Shown: in pieces, positions 24,089 to 46,461 of the stretch
Numbering within the stretch: the first letter of the stretch is position 1
How the letters are laid out: the number at the start of each line of letters is the position of its first letter
Source: Oceanimonas doudoroffii
Lineage (GTDB): Bacteria; Pseudomonadota; Gammaproteobacteria; Enterobacterales; Aeromonadaceae
Assembly: GCF_002242685.1 (NCBI RefSeq)
Contig: NZ_NBIM01000001.1
Span: forward strand, 1,798,001-1,862,000
Direction: 5' to 3'
Length of the DNA: 64,000 nt
Made by a program: the position numbers and the translations under genes
The notes under the pieces: generated by a model
What the model was told of the DNA's origin: nothing
What the model saw: only the letters and a program-made list of their open reading frames with translations
Database searches by the model: none

Positions 24089-25135
24089 TTAACTATAGAC
24101 GACAGACTCCTCGGGTACTCGCGCCATGGCGGCCTCCACCACTTCCGGGCCGGCCCCACGCTTGTGGGCATTTTCACTGAGGTGGCGGCGCCAGGCCCGG
24201 GCTCCGGGCATGCCCTGAAAAATGCCGAGGGTATGGCGGGTAATGTTGCCCAGATAGGTACCCTGGGTCAGCTCCCGCTCGATATAAGGCAGCAGGTTGC
24301 GAATCACCTGATGGCGGCTCGGCACCTCGCGCGTATCCTCAAACAGCTCGGCGTCCACCCGGGCCAGCAGATAGGGGTTCTGATAGGCTTCCCGCCCCAG
24401 CATGACGCCGTCCAGATGCTGCAGGTGGATGTGAGCCTCTTCCAGGGTCTTGATGCCGCCATTAATGGCCACGGTCAGCCCGGGGTAATCCCGCTTGAGC
24501 CGGTATACCCGCTCATAGTCCAGCGGCGGAATTTCGCGGTTTTCCTTGGGACTCAGCCCCTGCAGCCAGGCCTTGCGAGCGTGCACGACAAGGGCATCGG
24601 CACCGGCCTCGGCCACCCCGTCCACCAGCGCGCAGAGAAATTCGTAGCTGTCCTGCTCATCGATGCCGATACGGGTTTTGACCGTCACCGGTATGGACAC
24701 CGCCGCCTTCATCGCCGCCACCCCCTCGGCCACGGTTTTCGGCTGGGCCATCAGGCAGGCGCCGAACAGGCCATTCTGAACTCGATCGGACGGGCACCCC
24801 ACATTCAGGTTGATTTCGTCATAGCCGCGCTGCTCCGCCAGACGGGCGCAGTGTGCGAGCGCCTGCGGGTCATTGCCACCCAGCTGCAGCACCAGGGGAT
24901 GCTCCTCGTCGTTATACGCCAGGTAGTCACCCTTGCCGTGAATAATGGCGCCGGTGGTCACCATTTCGGTATAGAGCTGGGCATGACGGCTCATCAGCCG
25001 ATGAAAATAACGACAGTGTCGATCGGTCCAATCGAGCATGGGAGCTACAGAAAACCTGCCAGAGCTGAAACCGCCAGCTGTAGCGGCTTCGCTCTGGTTT
25101 TTCCTTGCATTTGAATCTCTTACAATCTCAGTCAT
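24089..25135 (-). CDS. dusA: tRNA-dihydrouridine(20/20a) synthase with an element-supplied N-terminus
   Basis: 348 residues. FMN enzyme that reduces U20/U20a in t[43 protein letters not shown] with the catalytic Cys loop, [17 protein letters not shown] and NGGI are family motifs. The first 31 codons are not the original ones: an element has integrated at the codons for P-M-L-D, and codons upstream of that come from the element. The native 12-residue beginning (MSHYPSARFSVA) survives at 37814-37849. DusA is therefore about 19 residues longer than before insertion and must use an element-borne promoter and ribosome site; the latter looks weak. Confidence 0.95.
25031..25054. other. attL of the dusA-integrated element
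   Basis: ATCGAGCATGGG at 25031-25042 is identical to 37802-37813. The next 12 bases match the right copy at 9 positions and end with GAAAA in both. The core lies inside dusA, 20-odd codons from the present start. Confidence 0.9.
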
Positions 25136-25167
25136 TTCGCATTGTTCTCAGGTATTTTTCAGGCTAC

Positions 25168-25203
25168 GGTATCCCATACAGTATCCCGCATAAATGGGAT
25201 ACC
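25168..25203. promoter_or_regulatory. Inverted repeat before the element integrase
   Basis: GGTATCCCAT and ATGGGATACC are perfect 10-bp inverted arms separated by 16 bases, with another TATCCC between them. They sit between the divergent integrase and dusA starts, where an integrase or excisionase operator would be expected. Confidence 0.5.
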
Positions 25204-25216
25204 CGATGGAGGAAGC

Positions 25217-26293
25217 ATGGCCAGCTTTACAGTGGAGAAGCGCAAAACGGCGGCGGGCGTCATACGTTACCGCTGCATTGTGCGCGTCAAAAAAGATAAG
25301 GCGATAGTGTATCAGGAGTCCCGCACCTTCGGGAAATTGGCCGATGCCCGCACCTGGGGTAAGGCTATGGTGTCCCATATCGAGACCCAGGGGATACCCG
25401 GTCAGACACCCGAGATACCAACCATTCGGGAGCTGATCACCATGTATCAGCAAGACCCTGACATATCGAAGAAGATAGGCCGCACCAAGGGGTATGTTCT
25501 CAACCTGCTGGTCGACAGCGACATATCAAAGCTACAAGCCGACAAGCTGACCACCATGGCCATTATCAACCACTGCCGGGACCGCAACGCCGCCGGCGCC
25601 AAACCGCAGACCGTCGCCCAAGACATCAGCTACCTAAAATCGGTCTACACATCTGCCAAGCCGGTGTTTGGGATACCGGTCACCGACGAAGTGATCCGCG
25701 AGGTGATCCCCGTTCTGCACAGCATGGGCCTGATCGGCCGTTCGGAACGGCGCAGCCGGCGACCGACCAGCGATGAGATCGGCAGGCTCCGCGAAGGCCT
25801 GGCCAAGCGCATGAGCCACCGAGGCAGCAAAATCCCCCTGACCGACATTCTGGATTTTTCCATACTCAGTTGCATGCGCATCAGCGAGGTTTGCGCTATC
25901 CGCTGGGGCGACATTGACGAAGAAGCTAGGGCAGTGATGGTGCGCAACCGCAAGGATCCCCGTAAAAAGGCAGGCAATCATATGTGGGTGCCACTGCTGG
26001 GCGAGGCCTGGAACATAGTGCAACGGCAGCCCAGGGAGAACGAGCTGATATTCCCCTACGAGTCACGCAGCGTGACTGCGGCCTTCCAGCGGGTGCGCAA
26101 TGCGCTGGGCATTGAAGACTTGCGTTACCATGACCTGCGCCGCGAAGGCGCCAGCCGCCTTTTTGAAGCCGGGTTCGGCATTGAAGAGGTGGCGCAGGTG
26201 ACCGGTCACAGAAGCCTGAACCTGCTCTGGCAGGTTTACACCGAACTGTTTCCAGGCAGACTGCATGCCAAGATGAAGGCAGAAAAACATTAG
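25217..26293 (+). CDS. Tyrosine integrase of the dusA-associated type
   Basis: 358 residues. Core- and arm-binding parts precede a tyrosine recombinase domain with the first Arg in SCMRISEVCAIRW, a Lys in RNRKDPRKKAGNH, HDLRREG, GHRS and the nucleophile Tyr in LLWQVYTELFP. It lies beside the interrupted 5' end of dusA and reads into the element, as described for dusA-associated integrases. ATG 25217 chosen for its GGAGG site; an upstream frame opening exists. Presumed to recombine the P-M-L-D codon core. Confidence 0.93.
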   Translation: MASFTVEKRKTAAGVIRYRCIVRVKKDKAIVYQESRTFGKLADARTWGKAMVSHIETQGIPGQTPEIPTIRELITMYQQDPDISKKIGRTKGYVLNLLVDSDISKLQADKLTTMAIINHCRDRNAAGAKPQTVAQDISYLKSVYTSAKPVFGIPVTDEVIREVIPVLHSMGLIGRSERRSRRPTSDEIGRLREGLAKRMSHRGSKIPLTDILDFSILSCMRISEVCAIRWGDIDEEARAVMVRNRKDPRKKAGNHMWVPLLGEAWNIVQRQPRENELIFPYESRSVTAAFQRVRNALGIEDLRYHDLRREGASRLFEAGFGIEEVAQVTGHRSLNLLWQVYTELFPGRLHAKMKAEKH

Positions 26294-26372: not shown

Positions 26373-26430
26373 GCTGCGCCAATTTATGCGGTAAGGTATA
26401 CGAATGAATACATCAAAGGAGGGGGGTAGC

Positions 26431-26934
26431 ATGCGAACACTGTCAAGCGAGTCTGTGGCCAACTACTTCATACAACGGTCCTTTGATGAGGGTGTACCAC
26501 TGACGCCGATGAAGCTGCTTAAACTCGTTTACATTGCCCACGGTTGGCACCTTGGCTACTTCGATAAGCCATTGATCAACGATGCTGTTCAGGCATGGCA
26601 ATACGGACCAGTGATCCCCGACCTCTACCGCAAAATAAAGCGATTTGGCCGCATGACCATAGACGCTCCCGTTGAAGGCTATGGTGTGGTTGGTGACGGT
26701 AATTTGATAAACACCCCACCGGACGAGCAGACAATCGCTCTTCTCGATAGTGTTTGGAATTCTTATTCCAAATTCGACGGCATTCAATTGTCTTCCATGA
26801 CCCACCAGCGTGGCACGCCGTGGGATCTGGCATGGCATGAGAACCATGGCAGTCAGTATCAGGGCGCCATTATTTCCAACGACCTGATAAAATCTCACTA
26901 TCAGTCAAAAATTCAACAGAATCAGCCTCGGTAA
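26431..26934 (+). CDS. Panacea-domain (SocA/GepA-like) protein, probable antitoxin
   Basis: 167 residues. LTPMKLLKLVYIAHGWHLGYFDKPLINDAVQAWQYGPVIPDLYRKIKRFG is the characteristic Panacea/DUF4065 core, followed by LLDSVWNSYSKFDGIQLSSMTHQ and GTPWDLAW. The domain is known as a promiscuous antitoxin fold that neutralises unrelated toxins encoded next to it. The start at ATG 26431 has a strong AAAGGAGGGG site; an ATG at 26404 lacks one. A membrane protein gene follows three bases after the stop, which fits a two-gene toxin-antitoxin unit. Antitoxin role is inference from family and context. Confidence 0.85.
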   Translation: MRTLSSESVANYFIQRSFDEGVPLTPMKLLKLVYIAHGWHLGYFDKPLINDAVQAWQYGPVIPDLYRKIKRFGRMTIDAPVEGYGVVGDGNLINTPPDEQTIALLDSVWNSYSKFDGIQLSSMTHQRGTPWDLAWHENHGSQYQGAIISNDLIKSHYQSKIQQNQPR

Positions 26935-26937
26935 ATC

Positions 26938-27285
26938 ATGGCCGCTGAAGATATATTTGCCGCAATTGAGGTTGAGGCTGCAAAACCATTAACAGCTCAA
27001 AACGACACGCTGGCAAAAAAAGAGCAGGAGGCTCTTGAGAACGGACGAACACAAGTACAGACAGAACTTCACAAGCTCGTTCGCTACTCCCTCCGATTTG
27101 GAGCTGTGTTGATAGGCGCGTTGATTTGCGTGAGGTTCTGGCATCTTGGATCGCCTGAAGCATGGCGCTGGTTAAGCGATGAAGATGTTCAAGGTATCGA
27201 CAAAATGCTATTCAGCAGCGCCTTCGGTGGCGTTGTAATTACTTACCTTAAAGACGTTCTATCTCCCCAGCAGCAAAAATCATAA
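26938..27285 (+). CDS. Small membrane protein, candidate toxin of the Panacea pair
   Basis: 115 residues. Charged helical N-terminus (about 1-62), one clear transmembrane helix (about 66-84, LRFGAVLIGALICVRFW) and a weaker hydrophobic helix near the end (FGGVVITYLKDVL). Starts three bases after the Panacea gene. Membrane-active toxins are one known class of Panacea partners, so toxicity through the membrane is a reasonable guess. No other family recognised. Confidence 0.6.
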   Translation: MAAEDIFAAIEVEAAKPLTAQNDTLAKKEQEALENGRTQVQTELHKLVRYSLRFGAVLIGALICVRFWHLGSPEAWRWLSDEDVQGIDKMLFSSAFGGVVITYLKDVLSPQQQKS

Positions 27286-28329: not shown

Positions 28330-28367
28330 CCAGTTGGGGTCAGTGAGGCGGCGTGGAGGCAGCATCA

Positions 28368-28970
28368 ATGACCAAATCAGGAAAACACCAAATGTCAGAA
28401 TCAAACATCCGTACCGGCTGGATTTGCATTGCCACCGAAGGCAACACCGCTGATGGCCGCATTATTCCCGCCCATTGGCTGAAGCAAATGGCCGAGACCT
28501 ACAGCCCCGATTTTTACACCGCCCTGTTGTGGCCAGACCATAACCGCAAAGCGGATGTAATGGGCCAGGTGATCGCGCTCAAAGCCGAGCAGGTGATCGG
28601 CAAAATGAAGCTGTTCGCCATTCTCAAACCAACCCGTGAGCTGCAGTCGCTCAACGCCAGAGGCCAGAAGCGGTTCTGCAGCATTGAGCCAGCTGAAGAC
28701 TTCGCCGGCACCAGTAAAACCTACCTGATGGGAGTGGGTGTGACCGACCAGCCGGCCAGCACCGGCACCACCCAGATGCAGTTCAGTCAGGGCAAACGAC
28801 TTATTTCCAAGTCTGAGCCCCTGCACTTCTCCGCAAAGGCCGAAAAGGTCAGCGATGCCGAGTTCCAGAAGTTGATCGGTGCAGTGGAAAGGATTGCCCA
28901 GCAACAGCAGGAGTTTGAAAACAAACTGTACACCGCCGCCAGTGAAGCTCGGGGCTTCTACCTGGTGTAA
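28368..28970 (+). CDS. P2 GpO-like capsid scaffold/protease
   Basis: 200 residues. The N-terminal part aligns along its length with the P2 scaffold protein: RTGWICIATEGNTADGR, QMAETYSPDFY, HNRKADVMGQVIALKAE, KLFAILKPT, NARGQKRFCSIEP, YLMGVGVTDQPASTGT. Residues D29, H58 and S105 fall where P2 GpO has its catalytic Asp19, His48 and Ser107, so the maturation protease looks intact. The C-terminal scaffolding part is much shorter than in P2 (200 against 284 residues). ATG 28368 chosen for GGAGG eight bases upstream; GTG 28353 and ATG 28392 are alternatives. No capsid, portal or terminase gene is nearby, so it must act on a helper's capsid. Confidence 0.85.
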   Translation: MTKSGKHQMSESNIRTGWICIATEGNTADGRIIPAHWLKQMAETYSPDFYTALLWPDHNRKADVMGQVIALKAEQVIGKMKLFAILKPTRELQSLNARGQKRFCSIEPAEDFAGTSKTYLMGVGVTDQPASTGTTQMQFSQGKRLISKSEPLHFSAKAEKVSDAEFQKLIGAVERIAQQQQEFENKLYTAASEARGFYLV

Positions 28971-30689: not shown

Positions 30690-30937
30690 CCACTCCCATC
30701 AAACAGCGCATCGCCGAAAACGAAGACAGCGTTCATAGCCTGGCCCTGGGCGTGACGGCTCTGGGTGATCTGCTTTCCAGTCTCGACCCGGCCTCCGGCA
30801 TGTCGGACAAAACCTTAAGAAGCCTGGGTTACCTGATCCAAGAAGTTGGCAAAAGCATGACCCAAAAGCTGGATGAAAATAACCGGCTCGACCTTGAGGA
30901 AGGCATGAAAAAACTGAGGGGGTCACGTGAGCACTAA
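30686..30937 (+). CDS. Small helical phage protein of unknown function
   Basis: 83 residues, predicted helical and acidic overall (RIAENEDSVHSLALGVTALGDLLSSLDPAS ... LGYLIQEVGKSMTQKLDENNRLDLEEGMKKLRG). No motif recognised. Overlaps the preceding stop by four bases and the gpA-like start by eleven, so it is part of the replication operon. Small proteins of this kind commonly precede gene A in P2-like phages. Confidence 0.6.
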   Translation: MTTPIKQRIAENEDSVHSLALGVTALGDLLSSLDPASGMSDKTLRSLGYLIQEVGKSMTQKLDENNRLDLEEGMKKLRGSREH

Positions 30938-33128
30938 GCTGTCCCCTACTTTGGATCGTCAGCCTCTTCCCGTCACCATCCCCGACTATGTAGCCGGGGT
31001 GAAAGTGATTCAGGCACTCTTCTCCGGGCCCACGGGCCCGGAGGACCTGGCATTCATTGAGTACGCGCTCAAAGGTCTGGAACTCAAGGCCGCCGGTAAG
31101 CTGTTCGGTGAATACCAGCGCCGCCGGAAACAATACAAGGCGAAATCGGCAAACATATGGCTACGAATGGCGGCCGGCACTGCCCGGGCGCAACAAGAAC
31201 GTTTTCCCGTTCCGTTGAAACGCATCAACGAGGAAAAACGGCGTGAAGAAGTAGCCCGCGAGTGGGCCAGTCAGGTAGCCGCCATTATTGATAACTCAAC
31301 CAAGGGGTTTACCTCTCCCCAGCCGGCCGATGAGCTGCTGGCGGCCGCCATGACCCCGGCCCGCCAATGGGGCTTTTCTCCGGTACTGCCCGACCTGAGC
31401 GGTGAAGTTACCGATAAGCACCTGAACCATGCAGCCAGTGCCTTGGCCAGGCTGCAGGATGACGGCTGGTGGCTGAGGCAGATCCGCCGCGCCTACCAGC
31501 GACACCAAGAGCTGATTGCCATTATGTCCGGCGAGGTACGCCGGGGCGTGAGCCCTTATGTATCGCATCGGGCCTTTATGGAATACCGGGCCAATAAAAC
31601 CGCCCAAGCTCGCTGGCTGGCGGAAATGCTGGTGGTGAATGAGGAAGAAGGGCTGGAACTATCACTGGCCGAGGCCCACGCTGCCAGCGTTTCTAATCCG
31701 GAAGTCCGCCGGGTGGAGCTGATGGTAAGAATGCGGGGGTTTGAAGATCTGGCTTGGGAGCAGGGCCACGCCGCCGAGTTCTACACCTGGACCACGCCCA
31801 GCCGGTTTCATGCCTGGAATACGGTCAAAGCAGACCGGGGCCGCTCGGTGCGTAACAAGCGATACCGCGGCACCAGCCCAAAAGACGCCCAGGCTTATCT
31901 GTGCAAGCAGTGGGCCAAGGCCCGTGCCGCCATGGCCCGGGCCGGCATTACCGTATACGGCTTTCGGGTGGTGGAGCCGCACCACGACGGCACGCCCCAC
32001 TGGCATATGCTGCTTTTCGTCGCGCCGGGCCAGCGTGATCAACTGCGGGACATTCTTGGCTATTACGCATGTGAACACGACCAGGGCGAAATAAAGAACA
32101 ACCGCTCTGCCCGCTTTGACGTGCTGGCCATCGATCCAGAGTACGGCAGCGCCACGGGCTACATTGCCAAGTACATTGCCAAGAACATCGATGGCCACCG
32201 GGTAGGTGATGACTACGAGGCCGAAGCCCGGTCCAGCGATACCGCTACCAACGTGGCCGCCTGGGCTAGCCTGTGGGGCATCCGTCAGTTTCAGCAGATA
32301 GGCGGCCCGGCCGTGACCGTGTGGCGGGAGCTGCGGAGGCTACGGGAAGCGGTCAAGGATCCTTTGATTGAGTCGGCTAGAGTTGCCGCCGACGCCGGCA
32401 ACTGGGCGGAGTTTATTGGTTCCATGGGCGGGGTCTCGCTGCCCCGGCAAGACAGGCCTGTAAAGCTGGCTCACCTAGTCACCCCCTGTGCCAGCAAATA
32501 CGGCGAAGACCTGCGCCGCCTGGTGGGTGTTACGTCGGCCGGGGGCTGCTCGATGCGGACCCGCCTGGATGGTTGGGCCGTGATCAGAAAGTCACAGGCG
32601 CGGGGTTGTGGCGAGCGCAGCGAGTTGCCTTTAAGCGGCGGCAGCCGCGCCCCTTGGAGCTCTGACAATAACTGTACGGGGCAGATAGAACTCCCTCCCC
32701 TGGCCACCGAACTGGCCCGCGCCGGGCTCGATAACGTGGACCGGGCACGAATGGAAGCCGGTGCCGTGGTGGTAGTGGACGGGCTCTATCACTGGATCCG
32801 TGACGGCCGGCTTTACCAGTCCCGGCACCGTCCCCAGTTTGGCCGGTCGCCGGCGCCGAACGGCAGGAACGCATGGGAAGAAGACCGGGATCTGGAGCAG
32901 CTGCAGCAATACCAACTGAAACGCCAGGCCATGGCCGTGCTGGCTGGCGATCTGCAGCTTGATGAGTACATCAAAAACGCGATGGATACCTTCCGGGCAG
33001 TGCACACTCTGGAAACCCTGCTGGACAAGGAACGCCTGGAAGCGCCGGCATCCTTTCACCAAAGTGAGCACCTGGCCAGGCTGTCCGGGTTTGTAACCTC
33101 ATGCCCGAGCCAGGGAGGTGCACTGTGA
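30927..33128 (+). CDS. P2 gpA-type rolling-circle replication initiator
   Basis: 733 residues, close to P2 gpA in size. HUH motif H358-W-H360 within HHDGTPHWHMLLFV, and the paired catalytic tyrosines Y412 and Y416 in GYIAKYIAKNIDG, as in gpA superfamily nickases. The N-terminal half includes the helical region typical of gpA. GTG start with GAGGGGG just upstream. It would nick its own origin (in P2 the origin lies inside gene A) and start rolling-circle replication using host helicase. Followed without gap by an integrase. Confidence 0.9.
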   Translation: MSTKLSPTLDRQPLPVTIPDYVAGVKVIQALFSGPTGPEDLAFIEYALKGLELKAAGKLFGEYQRRRKQYKAKSANIWLRMAAGTARAQQERFPVPLKRINEEKRREEVAREWASQVAAIIDNSTKGFTSPQPADELLAAAMTPARQWGFSPVLPDLSGEVTDKHLNHAASALARLQDDGWWLRQIRRAYQRHQELIAIMSGEVRRGVSPYVSHRAFMEYRANKTAQARWLAEMLVVNEEEGLELSLAEAHAASVSNPEVRRVELMVRMRGFEDLAWEQGHAAEFYTWTTPSRFHAWNTVKADRGRSVRNKRYRGTSPKDAQAYLCKQWAKARAAMARAGITVYGFRVVEPHHDGTPHWHMLLFVAPGQRDQLRDILGYYACEHDQGEIKNNRSARFDVLAIDPEYGSATGYIAKYIAKNIDGHRVGDDYEAEARSSDTATNVAAWASLWGIRQFQQIGGPAVTVWRELRRLREAVKDPLIESARVAADAGNWAEFIGSMGGVSLPRQDRPVKLAHLVTPCASKYGEDLRRLVGVTSAGGCSMRTRLDGWAVIRKSQARGCGERSELPLSGGSRAPWSSDNNCTGQIELPPLATELARAGLDNVDRARMEAGAVVVVDGLYHWIRDGRLYQSRHRPQFGRSPAPNGRNAWEEDRDLEQLQQYQLKRQAMAVLAGDLQLDEYIKNAMDTFRAVHTLETLLDKERLEAPASFHQSEHLARLSGFVTSCPSQGGAL

Positions 33129-34162
33129 CGGTACGCAAGCTCCCCACCGGCAAGTGGCTGGCTGAAGTGTTTCCAGAAGGAAGGGCCGGCCGGCGGGTGC
33201 GCCGCCAGTTCACCACCAAAGGCGAGGCCATGGCTTTCGAGCGGTTTCTACTGGAGCCAAACCAAGATCGCCCATGGATGGATGACGGGCACAATGATGG
33301 CGACACTCGCCGCCTGCAGGACTTGGTAGAGACCTGGTTTAACCTGCACGGGCAAAGTCTGAGCGATGGAGGCCGGCGAAGAACCAAGCTGCTCAACCTG
33401 TGCGAGGCTCTGGGAAATCCGGTGGCCACCGATTTCACCGCTCGGGATTTTGCAGCATACCGCGAAGCTAGGCTTTCCGGCCAACTGCCCAACCTTCGCG
33501 CTACCCAGCAGGAAGGGAAAGGAGTCAGCCCGACCACTGTCAACCGTGAGCATTCTTACCTGCGGGCGCTATTCAATGAGCTGAAGCGTCTGGGCGAATG
33601 GCAGGAAGGCAACCCGCTGGACGGCGTGCGGGCCTTCAAGGTCTCTGAAAGTGAGCTGGCGTTTCTGTACGAGATTGAGCTCAAGCGCCTGCTGTGTAGC
33701 TGTGCCGAAAGCAGTAACCCGGATCTGCTGATGGTGGTCAAGCTGTGCCTGGCCACAGGTGCCCGCTGGTCTGAAATCGAGAAGCTGCAGCAGTCCCAAG
33801 TATCCCCGCACCGGATCACCTTCACCCGCACCAAGAGCAACAAGAACCGCACCATTCCGATCAGCCGGGAGCTGTTCGCCCAGCTCCCCAGGCGAAGGGG
33901 CCGGCTGTTCGGTGACTGTTACCGGGCATTTGAAGTCGCCCTGGACAAGGCAGAGATCACCTTGCCCGAAGGCCAGTGTACCCACGTTCTGCGCCACACC
34001 TTTGCCAGCCACTTCATGATGAACGGCGGCAATATTCTGGTGCTGCAGAAGATACTGGGGCACTCCACCATCAATATGACCATGCGCTATGCCCACTTCG
34101 CCCCTGACCACCTGGAAGACGCGGTGAAGATGAACCCATTGGCGGCGGCCGGGCTGCTGTGA
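33125..34162 (+). CDS. Second tyrosine integrase, phage type
   Basis: 345 residues. N-terminal arm-binding beta domain (MTVRKLPTGKWLAEVFPEGRAGRRVRRQF), SAM-like domain, and catalytic domain with ATGARWSEIEKL (Arg), RTKSNKNRTIPI (Lys), HVLRHTFASHF (His-x-x-Arg) and GHSTINMTMRYAHFAP (His and nucleophile Tyr). GTG 33125 overlaps the gpA stop (GTGA) and has GGGAGG five bases upstream. All catalytic residues are present, so it is a second complete recombinase in one element. Integrase downstream of gene A is seen in some P2-like phages. It may be the ancestral integrase, now redundant with the dusA type. Confidence 0.92.
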   Translation: MTVRKLPTGKWLAEVFPEGRAGRRVRRQFTTKGEAMAFERFLLEPNQDRPWMDDGHNDGDTRRLQDLVETWFNLHGQSLSDGGRRRTKLLNLCEALGNPVATDFTARDFAAYREARLSGQLPNLRATQQEGKGVSPTTVNREHSYLRALFNELKRLGEWQEGNPLDGVRAFKVSESELAFLYEIELKRLLCSCAESSNPDLLMVVKLCLATGARWSEIEKLQQSQVSPHRITFTRTKSNKNRTIPISRELFAQLPRRRGRLFGDCYRAFEVALDKAEITLPEGQCTHVLRHTFASHFMMNGGNILVLQKILGHSTINMTMRYAHFAPDHLEDAVKMNPLAAAGLL

Positions 34163-34574: not shown

Positions 34575-34880
34575 ATGCGCTTTACCTGCCGAGCCTGTGG
34601 GGCAAAGGCTACCGTCACGAAAAACAACCGGATTTCCGCCGATTACGCCGAGCTTTATATCAGCTGCACGGAGGTTTTGTGCGGGCACCGCTGGGTTGAA
34701 TCAGTGGGGTATTCCCACGAACTGGCACCCTCACAGCTGCCCATACGGGATAGCGAAGTGTTCAGGATGATCAGCAGGATGCCGCCGGCAGAACGGGAAG
34801 AGCTGGTGGAGCAACTGAGAAAAGAGCTACCGCCTGCTATGGAAGCCGAACCAAGCGGCCCCAGGATCGTCAGGCGGTAA
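34575..34880 (+). CDS. Ogr/Delta-type zinc-finger transcription activator
   Basis: 101 residues with C5-x2-C8 and C31-x4-C36, the exact C-x2-C-x22-C-x4-C spacing of P2 Ogr and P4 Delta, followed by W40 and a charged C-terminal tail. These proteins switch on late promoters of P2-type phages. In P4, Delta lets the satellite turn on helper genes and respond to helper Ogr. Preceded by a G-rich ribosome site. It is the only late regulator in the element, while the structural genes it would act on are absent, so a helper's late genes are the likely targets. Confidence 0.9.
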   Translation: MRFTCRACGAKATVTKNNRISADYAELYISCTEVLCGHRWVESVGYSHELAPSQLPIRDSEVFRMISRMPPAEREELVEQLRKELPPAMEAEPSGPRIVRR

Positions 34881-35124
34881 AAGTGAGTATTCTTCAAGTT
34901 GGTGGCGGCTGGCCACCACCAGGAGGTGGCTGCAGTCCCGGTTCTGGCCTTGTGATGCCTTTACCTGGGTATCAATCAGCTGAATAAGACCATCCAGCAG
35001 GCTAACGTTAATCCGCTTTGGCTTGCAGGTGAATTCGGTTAAATCCACATCCAGTAGTAACCAGCCATCACAGTGGTTATAACCTCCAATCTGCCAGCAA
35101 TGACGTGGCCCTACTCCTTGATGC
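34827..35124 (-). pseudogene. hicB antitoxin remnant (truncated cassette)
   Basis: The leftward frame reads GWLLLDVDLTEFTCKPKRINVSLLDGLIQLID ... SHLLVVASRHQLEE, matching the end of the HicB partially degraded RNase H fold (DVDL) and its C-terminal ribbon-helix-helix. The N-terminal half is missing, a stop lies about 25 codons upstream of this stretch, and no hicA is present. A GTG at 35048 could start a 73-residue piece, but the fold would be incomplete. It lies directly behind the attC at 35125-35211, so it is probably the last, decayed cassette. Its 3' end runs into ogr. Confidence 0.55.
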
Positions 35125-35211
35125 CGTCAACGTTTTGCACACCGGGCGATATAAGCGTAGCTTATCTAAGCCCGAGCCGAGTAACGGCTGAAGTGCTGCA
35201 ACTTGTTAACT
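35125..35211 (-). repeat. Integron attC site A (well formed)
   Basis: Read leftward: R'' AGTTAAC (35211-35205), five-base spacer, L'' GCAGCAC within TTGCAGCAC (35201-35193), a variable hairpin (GGGC..ATAAGC TAC GCTTAT..GCCC), L' GTGTGC(AA) (35142-35135), spacer, R' GTTGACG (35131-35125). L'' and L' are complementary apart from one extra base, the extrahelical base that is a mark of genuine attC sites. R'' begins in the stop codon of the 112-residue gene, as in cassettes. Confidence 0.7.
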
Positions 35212-35544
35212 TTTTGTGGCAGCAAGGTAAGTCTCATTAGAAGAAAAAAGTTCAGAGATACATTTTTGCAAGCTAATAAAATTTGGAATTAACACAAGAT
35301 TGACATCAACCTCATCAGATACTGACAGGAGGTACGGGAATTTTGAATCAAAACTTCCCTTATAGTGCTCAATTATTAATGAAGGCTTGTTCACTTTCTC
35401 GAGCTGGTTCTCAGTGTATCCAGCGAATTTGATAGCTTCGGCATGGTCTGATGAGTAATCTTGTCCTAGAACCTCTTCAAATACAGCCTCAGAATATACC
35501 CATCCTTCTGAAATGTCATATATGTAATCCATCTTTCGGTTCAC
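35206..35544 (-). CDS. Cassette gene A: acidic protein of unknown function
   Basis: 112 residues from GTG 35544 with AAAGGAG six bases upstream. Sequence includes DYIYDISEGWVYSEAVFEEVLGQDYSSDHAEAIKFAGY and HYKGSFDSKFPYLLSVSDEVDVNLVLIPNF. No signal peptide, membrane helix or motif recognised. Much more AT-rich than the phage-type genes next to it. It is flanked by R' GTTAATT upstream (35568-35562) and R'' AGTTAAC at its stop (six of seven bases complementary), which defines a single-gene integron cassette. Expressed leftward with genes B and C. Confidence 0.6.
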   Translation of the reverse strand: MNRKMDYIYDISEGWVYSEAVFEEVLGQDYSSDHAEAIKFAGYTENQLEKVNKPSLIIEHYKGSFDSKFPYLLSVSDEVDVNLVLIPNFISLQKCISELFSSNETYLAATKS

Positions 35545-35561
35545 TCGAAACTCCTTTGTGA

Positions 35562-35664
35562 AATTAACGTTTCAATAACGAACCAAAAAGCGAAGGCTTT
35601 TGAAGGTCCGAGCCCGAAGGGCTTTCGTTGATTGATTTGCTATATTCACAAATCACCGTTATAT
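35562..35664 (-). repeat. Integron attC site B (probable)
   Basis: R'' ATATAAC (35664-35658) overlaps the end of gene B; R' GTTAATT (35568-35562) opens the next cassette. Between them are two strong hairpins (AGCCC-TTC-GGGCT and AAAAGC-CTTC-GCTTTT) and an alternative pairing CAAT(C)AACGAA with TTCGTTATTG. L boxes are less clear than in site A. Confidence 0.5.
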
Positions 35665-36197
35665 ACTATTGATCTCTTATCTATTCCAATATCTTTCCGG
35701 GCTTCATTCAACATATTAAGTGCTAACTCTCGAACATCACTCCATACGTACTTTTCGGTTCCATTAGATATTTTTAATAGATGATCCATGAGCTTATCCT
35801 GCGCATCCATTACTGATTGTGGCGCAAGCATCGCAAGATAGCCATACACCCTCATTCTTTGCTCGTTAAACTCATCAAAGCGACTGCCTGCTTCATGCGG
35901 CTGAAGCCGTCCCATTTCATGGGAATCAAAAGAAGAGAGTATTCGAGAAACAACATCAATAGTTGCACGATATGTAAGAATTTTATCGTTCTGAAATCGG
36001 AGGGTAGTTTCTTTAATCAGGTCTAATTCTCGCTTTGTTTTTTCGAGAGCAGATGCTAACTCATGTGTTTGGTCAGCAAGAATTCGATTTGCCCAGACCT
36101 TGCCCAGCCACGACGACAGGGCGAAAATGGCTGCTCCTCCAATGCCAATAGAGGCAGTTGAGGCCGTTATGAATTTAAATACAGTTTCCCAGTCCAT
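35646..36197 (-). CDS. Cassette gene B: membrane-anchored coiled-coil protein
   Basis: 183 residues. One transmembrane helix near the N-terminus (about residues 10-32, TASTASIGIGGAAIFALSSWLG), then a coiled coil (about 40-68, THELASALEKTKRELDLIKETTLRFQ) and a helical C-terminal domain. Predicted to expose its bulk to the cytoplasm. No family recognised. AT-rich. The stop is followed at once by R'' ATATAAC, complementary to the R' GTTATAT at 36223-36217 just upstream of its start, so the cassette boundaries match each other exactly. Defence or stress function is only a guess from context. Confidence 0.65.
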   Translation of the reverse strand: MDWETVFKFITASTASIGIGGAAIFALSSWLGKVWANRILADQTHELASALEKTKRELDLIKETTLRFQNDKILTYRATIDVVSRILSSFDSHEMGRLQPHEAGSRFDEFNEQRMRVYGYLAMLAPQSVMDAQDKLMDHLLKISNGTEKYVWSDVRELALNMLNEARKDIGIDKRSIVYNGDL

Positions 36198-36216
36198 ATG
36201 TCGTCACGCTCCGTGA

Positions 36217-36271
36217 ATATAACGAGTCAATCAGTCATTAAGCCACATGCGACTACAGCAGTTTGTTATGC
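36217..36271 (-). repeat. Integron attC site C (short)
   Basis: R'' GCATAAC (36271-36265) overlaps the stop of gene C; R' GTTATAT (36223-36217) opens cassette B. R'' is the exact complement of GTTATGC at 36857-36851, which opens cassette C. The internal L boxes are weak (AGTC/GACT only). At 55 bp it is at the short end for attC. Confidence 0.55.
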
Positions 36272-36835
36272 TTTGACTTCAACATATTCAGTCAACAAAG
36301 CTTCAAACCCTCTAACCGCAGAAATTACAGTAATTACTTCACTAGGTTCAATGTCAAGATCTTCAGGACTACGAGGATGCATTAACCGATCACGAATTTT
36401 GATTGCTTTTTTAAAATCGCCCCACCAAGCACCCCCCGCATGAAATGCTTTATTTAACTGATGAGCTTTTGAATATAGGTTAAAAGCAAATTTTATATTC
36501 TTAGTTAGGTTGATATGAGCACTAACTGCAACAATTTCACCTTTATCATTTAACTGGTGAGAAACTTCAAACGCTAAGTCTATTTCGGCTTGGGTTAGTT
36601 CAATGCCATTATCAATAGCATCATCAATTGCAGCAACTTTCAGAGAAAAGCTGACTCCCTCGATATAAGCGAAACCAGCTCTAACGAGCTGACGTGCATT
36701 AAACTCATGATCAGCGAGAGTTGTACCGTCTTCTTGCTTTTCACCCTCCTCAATATCTTTTAAGACATTGGTGTAACAGCGTTGAAAGTCTTCACCTAGT
36801 GTTAAAATAAGTTCGCCTGTACCTCTTTCGCTCAT
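36266..36835 (-). CDS. Cassette gene C: HEPN-like protein
   Basis: 189 residues, mostly helical. R148-D-R-L-M-H153 within IKIRDRLMHPRSP is an R-x4-H motif as found at the active site of HEPN ribonucleases, preceded by long helices (NARQLVRAGFAYIEGVSFSLKVAAIDDAI, NIKFAFNLYSKAHQLNKAF). HEPN proteins are common in anti-phage and toxin-antitoxin systems. ATG 36835 chosen for AGAGGA six bases upstream. First cassette of the array, flanked by GTTATGC and its complement GCATAAC. Nuclease activity is inferred from the motif. Confidence 0.65.
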   Translation of the reverse strand: MSERGTGELILTLGEDFQRCYTNVLKDIEEGEKQEDGTTLADHEFNARQLVRAGFAYIEGVSFSLKVAAIDDAIDNGIELTQAEIDLAFEVSHQLNDKGEIVAVSAHINLTKNIKFAFNLYSKAHQLNKAFHAGGAWWGDFKKAIKIRDRLMHPRSPEDLDIEPSEVITVISAVRGFEALLTEYVEVKA

Positions 36836-36850
36836 GCTTTCCTCTTTAAA

Positions 36851-36935
36851 GCATAACATTTTTAATACTGCATATGCACATACACACTCATGCACGCTAT
36901 CTTAAAATATAACTTAAGATGATTATTAAATTGAA
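36851..36935 (-). promoter_or_regulatory. Cassette-array junction and promoter
   Basis: R' box GTTATGC at 36857-36851 marks the upstream edge of cassette C. Leftward promoter candidate TTCAAT (36935-36930), 18-base spacer, TATATT (36911-36906) lies just outside it, in the place of an integron Pc promoter. No attI or integron integrase is recognised beyond it. Confidence 0.45.
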
Positions 36936-37071
36936 CTTTTCTATTAAATAAGGAATTCCACACCGGCAAAAACGCGCATGCGCATATTGATGCATGGCCA
37001 TGCGCAGTATCTACTTTGTTTACACGTCAACTTATTGATAATTAATGATTTCATCAAATTTGTTGGTTGTA

Positions 37072-37096
37072 TACGCGCATCATGCTGCGACAATTT
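37072..37096. promoter_or_regulatory. Copy of the 26365 motif near the right end
   Basis: 37076-37096 matches 26365-26385 at 19 of 21 bases (CGCAT, ATGCTGCG, CAATTT shared). The left copy overlaps the -10 of the Panacea promoter; this one is downstream of the second LexA-type promoter. A shared operator or recombination-protein site is likely. Confidence 0.4.
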
Positions 37097-37124
37097 GAGC
37101 ATCCGAACCGAGAAACGCAAAATA

Positions 37125-37144: not shown

Positions 37145-37801
37145 TTTTAATAGGCTTCTCATACAACCAAAACCAGCATAATTTCCTGCAATGGGCACGC
37201 TACCGCCCGGGTCTTGCGGGCGACCTTGCCTCTCCTCGTCCCTGCTGAGGTTGCTCTCTGCCAGTAGATTGGCATCGTATGAAGCTTTTGCATTATGACG
37301 CTACAGACCGCCGAATGGAAGACGGGCCCCGGTGTGCGGCATAAAGCCCCGGCCGCTACTGAGCCCGGCTGGAGTTAATGCGCTTGGATCACCGAGGGCC
37401 CCTTCAGCTCGACGTGATATTGCCGGCTACCAAGCCCGGGATTTAATGTGAGGGTCCAGGGCTCCGCCCTGGCGGGTATGGGCGGAGCCCATGAAGACCC
37501 TGCGAAACTGCAGGCCAGGACAAGTCCGCTACGCGATCACTGATGCATAAGGCGATACAAGGCGTTATCGCGCCCTGCCAAACCGAGCTTTTGCCGAAAG
37601 GTGCCGAGTAGAATGCTCTTGGCTGTGGGGAGGTATGTCACAAGTCCAGTTCAGCCTGCGGCAGGAAGCCCGGGAACGGGCGGAGAGTCTGGCGATGGCA
37701 GGGGCCAGAAAGTGCGCTTAATCAGATCCTTGGTGATCTATAAGTATCCCAATGAGTTTATCACTCTAATAAAAACAATGATTTATTTAAAAGTCTGCCC
37801 C
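37145..37801. other. Non-coding right end of the element
   Basis: Together with 36836-37124 this makes over 900 bases without a supported gene. Strong hairpins: CGCCCG/CGGGCG (37204-37222), the three-way junction at 37451-37501, and GCCCG-GGAA-CGGGC near 37667. A 28-codon frame from an ATG directly after GGGGAGGT (MSQVQFSLRQEARERAESLA...) ends in AGARKCA; it has coding-like composition but is too short to call. Confidence 0.4.
37451..37501. ncRNA. Compact three-way-junction structure (unassigned)
   Basis: AGGGTC (37451-37456) pairs with GACCCT (37496-37501), enclosing two perfect hairpins: CCAGGGC-TCC-GCCCTGG (37456-37472) and ATGGGC-GGA-GCCCAT (37478-37492). CTCCGCCC and GGGCGGAG in the two loops are also mutually complementary. 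Could be an RNA or a single-stranded DNA structure; strand and function unknown. Confidence 0.4.
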
Positions 37802-37825
37802 ATCGAGCATGGGGGCAACGGAAAA
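37802..37825. other. attR of the dusA-integrated element
   Basis: ATCGAGCATGGG at 37802-37813 repeats the attL core; the following GGCAACGGAAAA corresponds to AGCTACAGAAAA at the left. Confidence 0.9.
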
Positions 37826-46078: not shown

Positions 46079-46155
46079 TGGCGCATCCGGGAGGATTCGA
46101 ACCTCCGACCGCTCGGTTCGTAGCCGAGTACTCTATCCAGCTGAGCTACGGATGC
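46079..46155 (-). tRNA. tRNA-Arg (ACG), copy 3 of the cluster
   Basis: 77 bases including encoded CCA. Acceptor GCATCCG / CGGATGC, anticodon stem CTCGG / CCGAG with loop containing ACG, T-arm GGTTCGAATC. ACG is read as ICG after deamination. Identical body to the other two copies. Confidence 0.96.
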
Positions 46156-46180
46156 ATGTTATGTTGCGTTTATTTTCAGA

Positions 46181-46257
46181 TGGCGCATCCGGGAGGATTC
46201 GAACCTCCGACCGCTCGGTTCGTAGCCGAGTACTCTATCCAGCTGAGCTACGGATGC
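46181..46257 (-). tRNA. tRNA-Arg (ACG), copy 2
   Basis: Same 77-base sequence including CCA. 25 bases separate it from copy 3. Confidence 0.96.
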
Positions 46258-46282
46258 TTTTCTGAAAAACGCTTTTTAAAAG

Positions 46283-46359
46283 TGGCGCATCCGGGAGGAT
46301 TCGAACCTCCGACCGCTCGGTTCGTAGCCGAGTACTCTATCCAGCTGAGCTACGGATGC
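46283..46359 (-). tRNA. tRNA-Arg (ACG), copy 1
   Basis: Same 77-base sequence including CCA, next to tRNA-Ser. Cluster of Ser then three Arg downstream of csrA, probably one transcript. Confidence 0.96.
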
Positions 46360-46368
46360 GCTGTAAAA

Positions 46369-46461
46369 TGGCGGTGAAGGAGGGATTCGAACCCTCGATG
46401 CGGGTATAAGCCGCATACTCCCTTAGCAGGGGAGCGCCTTCAGCCTCTCGGCCACCTCACC
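46369..46461 (-). tRNA. tRNA-Ser (GCT)
   Basis: 93 bases with CCA. Long variable arm (GCGGCTTATAAGCCGC), anticodon loop CTGCTAA, acceptor GGTGAGG paired with CCTTCACC. Reads AGC/AGU. Confidence 0.95.

Follow-up and report, generated by a model that had tools for sequence, protein, structure and literature searches.

The DNA analysed here (the window) is a 64,000-nucleotide stretch of an Oceanimonas doudoroffii contig (NZ_NBIM01000001.1, positions 1,798,001 to 1,862,000). It holds a 12.8-kb P2-related, satellite-like element inserted at the 5′ end of dusA, and within that element lie three minus-strand open reading frames (ORFs; 36266-36838, 35646-36197, and 35206-35544) oriented opposite to the element's own genes. 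Their region has a GC content of 0.40, compared to 0.55 for the element body. A first-pass annotation had described these genes as AT-rich and opposite to satellite genes, as they are, and had interpreted them as integron-type cassettes carried as satellite cargo without an integron integrase (IntI). The observation was partly confirmed, with one box misplaced, and the comparisons reported here support the interpretation as far as sequence can. The array would run from an attI-type site, through three cassettes with their attC sites, to a truncated hicB gene next to the element's ogr gene:

36851..36946, minus strand: putative attI-type site heading the array; core at 36854-36876, with crossover at the G^TT of R′ box GTTATGC (36851-36857)
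36266..36838, minus strand: cassette 1 gene, about 190 amino acids (aa), with a weak HEPN-like motif, RDRLMHP
36217..36271, minus strand: degenerate attC of cassette 1, 14.5 bits; R boxes kept, L pairing poor
35646..36197, minus strand: cassette 2 gene, 183 aa, with an N-terminal membrane-like stretch (by eye); phrog_20584 at 0.001, function unknown
35562..35645, minus strand: attC of cassette 2, the best site, 27.0 bits
35206..35544, minus strand: cassette 3 gene, 112 aa, without relatives in the searches made
35125..35211, minus strand: attC of cassette 3, 13.0 bits; R″ AGTTAAC, R′ GTTGACG, L boxes TTGCA-G-CAC / GTGTGCAA
34891..35131, minus strand: remnant of HicB (C-terminal part), truncated at the last attC's R′ box; Pfam HicB_lk_antitox 0.0011, under the cut-off
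34575..34880, plus strand: Ogr/Delta-like late activator, the left border of the cargo spot; Pfam Ogr_Delta 8e-8

There are attC sites at the ends of all three genes, one strong and two degenerate. The gene of cassette 1 is nested in a longer listed ORF (36266-36895), and its flanking boxes, GTTATGC (36851-36857) and GCATAAC (36265-36271), are complementary at 7/7 positions. GTTAATT (35562-35568) pairs with AGTTAAC (35205-35211) at 6/7. GTTATAT (36217-36223) also has a partner, although not the ATATAAC given in the first-pass annotation, which falls inside gene 2 (approximately 35658-35664); the covariance model described below sets the site at 35562-35645, with the R″ box ATATAGC at 35639-35645 (6/7) and L boxes TCAAT-C-AACGAA / TTCGTTATTGA that are complementary except for one extrahelical C. 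The single extrahelical base reported for the third attC (35125-35211) was correct. The array therefore has what is expected of a cluster of attC sites lacking integron integrases (CALIN): each of the three co-oriented genes has an attC at its 3′ end (3/3), the R′ and R″ boxes at the cassette ends match (7/7, 6/7, and 6/7), and, for cassettes 1 and 2, the same or related cassettes occur in other arrays.

Box-pairing scanners were either too noisy or, in a strict form, blind to the sites of the window, and the attC search therefore relied on a covariance model built from 41 attC sites of IntI-adjacent arrays in other genomes. Six of these came from two genomes of the same genus (L058 and L060); the window and its related elements contributed none. 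An unfiltered search of 34800-37100 gave nine hits, of which the best three were 35562-35645 (27.0 bits), 36217-36271 (14.5 bits), and 35129-35207 (13.0 bits), all on the coding strand and one at each gene's stop codon; the first-pass annotation had proposed a covariance-model check of this kind. The probability of such a placement is about 2e-6, as a post hoc estimate that assumes independent and uniform placement. It could be argued that AT-rich DNA would yield such boxes by chance, given that R boxes are short and that two of the sites score low in a 200-kb search. However, none of 53 control loci (883 kb in all, taken from a set of 80 loci around related P2-type integrases) gave a hit at E ≤ 1, and at attI-type loci elsewhere in the genus every one of 40 attC hits lies downstream on the same strand. 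Considering the covariance hits, the empty controls, and this placement, we rejected chance boxes as exceedingly improbable.

The sequence that heads the array, at 36851-36946, was absent from the first-pass annotation, and the annotated feature ought to reach as far as about 36946 so as to include it. We read it as an attI-type site with predicted recombination activity, on the basis of its likeness to attI sites of the genus, counts of its core pattern, the attC sites found downstream of such cores, and a published form from Shewanella. A 220-aa marker gene of the element was found, among 75 genomes of the family, only in three other hosts, all of the same genus as that of the window (G000): L077/G278 (L321), L078/G287, and G275 (L322, L345). 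The attI-side junction is common to three of these four elements, namely the window, L078, and G275, in which three different first cassettes begin at the same nucleotide. The sequence leading up to the first cassette ends in GTATTAAAAATG in the window, TTATTAAAGATG in L078, and GTATTAGAAATG in G275, and the three sequences diverge no more than 3 bases past the junction G.

The 100 bases up to this junction in the three elements were compared with the attI sites of 11 integrons of the genus, which fall by eye into three types (type A, n = 6; other types, n = 5), with 300 shuffles per comparison. Against type A, none of the 300 shuffles reached the observed score in 16 of the 18 comparisons, and in the other two the score was reached by 1/300 and 3/300. 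The window scored 57 against the attI of G285 (null maximum 40) and 39 against its own chromosomal attI (1/300 shuffles), while the L078 sequence aligned with the G025 attI over 87 columns. Over the last 70 aligned columns the window and L078 are 82% identical, and each has 59-68% identity to type A; G275 has 57-58% identity both to the window and L078 and to type A, after an apparent upstream deletion. A profile of six attI sites gave L078 24.6 bits in nhmmer. About 100 bases upstream in the window, TATGCGCATGCGC (36974-36986) resembles the outer half of attI, and G275 apparently lacks the stretch between the two copies of this outer-half-like sequence.

Core patterns point in the same direction. 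A five-A pattern (≤2 mismatches) occurs 19 times, in 9 of the 23 genomes of the genus, with no occurrence in 52 other genomes of the family or in the reversed control; its single occurrence in the strain's own 3.8-Mb genome is at window 36854-36876. A four-A pattern occurs 50 times, in 20/23 genomes of the genus (control 0). These 69 attI-type places include only 10 that adjoin an intI match (by coordinate comparison, with IntI matches at E ≤ 1e-30). At the 49 places for which loci were given, 40 attC hits were found at E ≤ 0.05, spread over 33 loci and all downstream on the same strand (40/40), and among the loci without an adjoining intI match, 28/43 (counted by eye) have an attC hit within 1.5 kb. 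Dispersed attC sites were found in 22 of the 23 genomes. Many arrays of the genus are headed by attI-type sites that lie away from intI matches (e.g., G000:C1:590450, C7:61842, and C4:122905), and short IntI fragments near dispersed arrays (L359:12993-13175, L357:5023-5088, and L361:6366-6434) look like integrase relics.

The abundance of dispersed attC sites in the genus would also fit a single landing of cassettes at a non-classical genomic site (attG), in which case the upstream likeness to attI would reflect the sequence preference of IntI rather than a true attI. Cassette insertion at attG was reportedly described by Loot in 2024. We give this explanation little credence, since the likeness to attI reaches 87 columns in the L078 element, the five-A core was found in none of 52 other genomes of the family and has the form of a published attI, and three different first cassettes meet at an identical nucleotide. 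Since the array begins at an attI-type site, homologous to intI-linked attI sites and ending at the G^TT of the first cassette albeit weak in the nhmmer profile, it reads as an integrase-less integron rather than a bare cassette cluster, and what was described as a bare attC cluster would become a docking platform. Like a complete integron it has an attI-type site and attC-flanked cassettes in one orientation. Unlike a complete integron it has no intI next to the attI: no IntI was found in the element, as the first-pass annotation had stated, and its only IntI-like match is a weak one to the P2-type integrase.

The four elements differ in cargo at the same spot. The dusA ends and the greater part of the gene region are common to all four (approximately 79-89% DNA identity), and the dusA-type integrase of the window is 90-94% identical in the three related elements. 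Collinear homology with the window ends after ogr at 34886 for L077 and L078 and at 35112, inside the hicB remnant, for G275, and it returns at 36854 (L078), 36974 (G275), and 37035 (L077). Between these points the relatives hold different genes, several of them with attC sites, as the first-pass annotation had suggested should be checked. The cargo of G275 consists of an HNH protein (2.7e-4 in Pfam) and one of 477 aa (PADLOC PDC-M36A 2e-51; Mrr_cat 0.003, under the cut-off), with attC hits at 2/2 gene ends (24.1 and 9.7 bits). L078 carries four proteins without a clear family and attC hits at three of the four gene ends (13.7, 11.8, and 10.7 bits), while in L077 a TIR protein (TIR_2 in Pfam, 1e-10) is accompanied by one that matches HEPN weakly, with a hit at one of two gene ends (7.6 bits). 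Only the 24.1-bit site of G275 and the 27.0-bit site of the window are strong, and the remainder rest on position. The 477-aa protein (L322:6432-7865) also matches phrog_27295 at 1.5e-202, and it therefore has close relatives in phage or prophage records.

At the other end of the array, the position in hicB at which the last attC joins is, by eye and to about one base, the same in G275 as in the window, the attC sequences themselves differing. The hicB remnant has 78% DNA identity to the intact hicB of L077 over 34891-35124, and L077 has a shorter remnant at the cargo spot and, at another place in the element, an intact hicAB. A simple insertion splitting hicB was rejected, as the N-terminal part was not seen beyond the other side of the array. 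Cargo could also have been swapped by homologous recombination in the shared flanks, with the integron parts as fossils of one old capture and no current role for IntI. Flanks of 79-89% identity, the degeneracy of several attC sites, and the broken IntI of this host fit such a history. Conversely, in two elements both ends of the array coincide with the recombination point, the cargo genes bring their own, unrelated attC sites, and stop-free IntI genes are found in 13/23 genomes of the genus, including the L077 and L078 hosts. We regard this history as rather unlikely; for later turnover, homologous exchange of whole cargo blocks is a real rival to cassette exchange by IntI.

IntI scores above the family cut-off in 15 of the 23 genomes of the genus and lacks stops over nearly the full model in 13, so that apparently intact integrases are present in sister genomes, the hosts of L077 and L078 among them. 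In the strain studied here, the IntI match occupies two frames and contains a stop, and the array is probably frozen because this IntI is broken. The broken intI lies beside an attI and attC sites in the strain's own chromosomal integron (G000:C1:732408-733344; L001, L002, and L009).

Several results weigh against a cassette array loaded at an attI by IntI. Besides the broken IntI of this strain, the match in G275 is partial, and the crossover triplet of G275 is GTG instead of GTT. L077 has no attI-type region and only its one weak attC of 7.6 bits. Two of the window's three attC sites are degenerate, and in a 200-kb covariance search 35562-35645 alone was significant (E 4e-4), with 36217-36271 at E 0.76 and 35125-35211 unlisted. 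The nhmmer profile ranked two of the sites low, at 6.9 bits (E 16) for the window and 8.0 bits (E 7.1) for G275, and in 14 of the 15 comparisons with the five non-A attI sites between 7 and 297 of the 300 shuffles reached the score. Both core patterns were drawn up after these sequences had been seen, and the occurrence in the window needs both of the allowed mismatches. Sixteen of the 49 attI-type loci have no attC within 1.5 kb. Finally, a promoter scan found 4 promoters where 5.8 were expected; promoter and terminator scans together showed no excess, and dyads of the Ogr-binding type were absent near the array within the window.

The array lies between dusA-type attachment repeats, as its proposed role as cargo of a satellite would imply. 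A core of TCGAGCATGGGGGCAACAGAAAA or a near copy of it is found at both ends of all four elements. Outside the cargo spot, the element and its borders comprise the following features (gene names of dusA and the Fur/Zur-like gene by eye):

24089-25135, minus strand: dusA
25023..25054, no strand: left attachment repeat, inside the 5′ end of dusA; 81% direct repeat with 37794-37825
25142..26293, plus strand: dusA-type tyrosine integrase; Pfam Phage_integrase 7.7e-20, phrog_25190 3.5e-51
28353..28970, plus strand: short GPO-like scaffold/protease protein; Pfam Phage_GPO 8e-42, profile residues 3-139 of 268
30927..33128, plus strand: P2 gpA-type replication protein; Pfam Phage_GPA 3.5e-87, phrog_91 3e-182
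33101..34162, plus strand: second, P2-type tyrosine recombinase; Pfam Int_N 3e-37 and Phage_integrase 3e-21, phrog_1 1e-80
37794..37825, no strand: right attachment repeat, in the displaced 5′ end of dusA; direct-repeat partner of 25023-25054
37981: Fur/Zur-like gene, beyond the right end of the element

The element thus has an integrase and att sites, together with phage regulatory and replication genes but not the full capsid, terminase, and tail set. In a PHROGs scan of 17 hand-chosen ORFs, no clear capsid, terminase, or tail gene was found besides the truncated GPO; a small helix-turn-helix protein has a weak match to the terminase small subunit (1.6e-4), ranked under better matches. Gene content suggests a P2-related, satellite-like element, for which dependence on a helper is hypothetical. 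With the element as query, a phage collection returned two records, both of one phage, with a match of 59 bases, and the viral contigs searched held no relative of the 220-aa marker gene. With that dependence hypothetical, the P2-type gpA, integrase, and Ogr genes and the truncated GPO could also come from a decayed P2-like prophage. Random decay would not readily leave four genomes with the same dusA ends and most genes in common (79-89%), nor integrase, replication, and ogr genes that are open in the related elements where compared, and we consider a decayed prophage the less probable origin. A second variable spot follows the dusA integrase, with a SocA/Panacea-domain gene in the window (26404-27285) and hicAB in L077 (1406-2073). 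Elsewhere in the window, three tandem tRNA-Arg(acg) genes and one tRNA-Ser lie at 46079-46461.

Two of the cassettes have relatives in other arrays. Cassette 1 has 81% DNA identity over 36262-36857 (83% identity at the protein level) to a cassette on viral contig L316, and the match ends no more than 3 bases from the limits set by the boxes (36265-36857). The L316 array resembles, by eye, Vibrio cholerae repeat (VCR) arrays, with two attC sites of 58 and 44 bits, and the contig carries a Zot-like, inovirus-type gene (by eye) beside these sites and the cassette 1 relative. In G288, attC hits flank a distant relative (28%). L013, which holds a relative of gene 1, has no attC hit. Phage records held no match to cassette 1, and plasmid records held two at 28-32% identity. 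Relatives of cassette 2 were found at 11 loci in other genomes (L015-L025), with attC hits at four; they adjoin the gene in L016, L020, and L021 and lie about 0.9 kb off in L019. None of the six viral loci with cassette 2 relatives (L339-L344) had an attC hit. Cassettes 2 and 3 had no match at E ≤ 1e-3 in the plasmid collection, and cassette 3 had no relatives in any search made.

The three cassette proteins of the window matched nothing in PADLOC (0/3 at E ≤ 0.05) or Pfam (0/3 at E ≤ 0.1), and none was assigned to a known defence family. In four relatives of gene 1, the R (3/4) and H (4/4) of the HEPN motif Rx4H are retained; Pfam gave no support for HEPN, and the assignment is tentative. Integrons are reportedly reservoirs of anti-phage functions, according to recent papers in Science, and the first-pass annotation had linked this cargo to phage defence. 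That link is indirect, with TIR, HNH, and Mrr-like proteins in the cargo of the related elements but no family match for the window's own three genes.

Parts of this arrangement have precedents. Islands with dusA-specific integrases have been published; as excerpted, that report describes variable islands with an integrase at the 5′ end of dusA and semiconserved att repeats of 21 bp, as here, to which the present element adds integron cassette cargo and P2-type replication and Ogr genes (PMC4482086). Phage-borne CALINs, with attC cassette clusters on phage DNA lacking intI, are also known, and the excerpted text describes no family of elements that swap cargo at a common attI (PMC9892861). A close precedent in that text is the cryptic Shewanella prophage M16-3, in which the attI AAACGCGCATGCGCACTAATAAAATGTT, similar to the one proposed here, heads both an integron and a CALIN (PMC9892861). 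M16-3 has a complete integron with intI in the same prophage, whereas the element described here has no intI and is small and satellite-like, with related elements that carry different cargo. The attG sites weighed above are mentioned in excerpts of a further paper (PMC12901181). In open-licence literature, integron cassettes as satellite cargo were not described in the titles or abstract openings among the matches listed.

Taken together, we think it quite likely that a dusA-inserted, satellite-like element carries an integrase-less integron whose attI is loaded, and whose cassettes are swapped, by IntI acting in trans. IntI from the host chromosome would recombine the attC of a cassette with the attI of the element at G^TT, so that cassettes would be gained and exchanged at one spot. 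They may be expressed from a promoter upstream of attI and may serve in defence, and, if packaged by a helper phage, the element would carry them to other cells. More tentatively, and with our own opinion close to evenly divided, integrons of this genus may be distributed systems in which one chromosomal IntI serves several scattered attI-type docks, one of them on a satellite family that changes its defence cargo by means of the host's integron enzyme.

If so, this satellite family would parasitise a phage and exploit an integron as well. A satellite that owns an attI-type dock would give integron cassettes a route from cell to cell by phage packaging, and would allow satellites to change their accessory genes one by one. 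Other arrays filed as bare CALINs may hold unrecognised attI sites. The genus is suited to a direct test, with its apparently intact IntI genes, dispersed arrays headed by attI, and related elements that differ in cargo.

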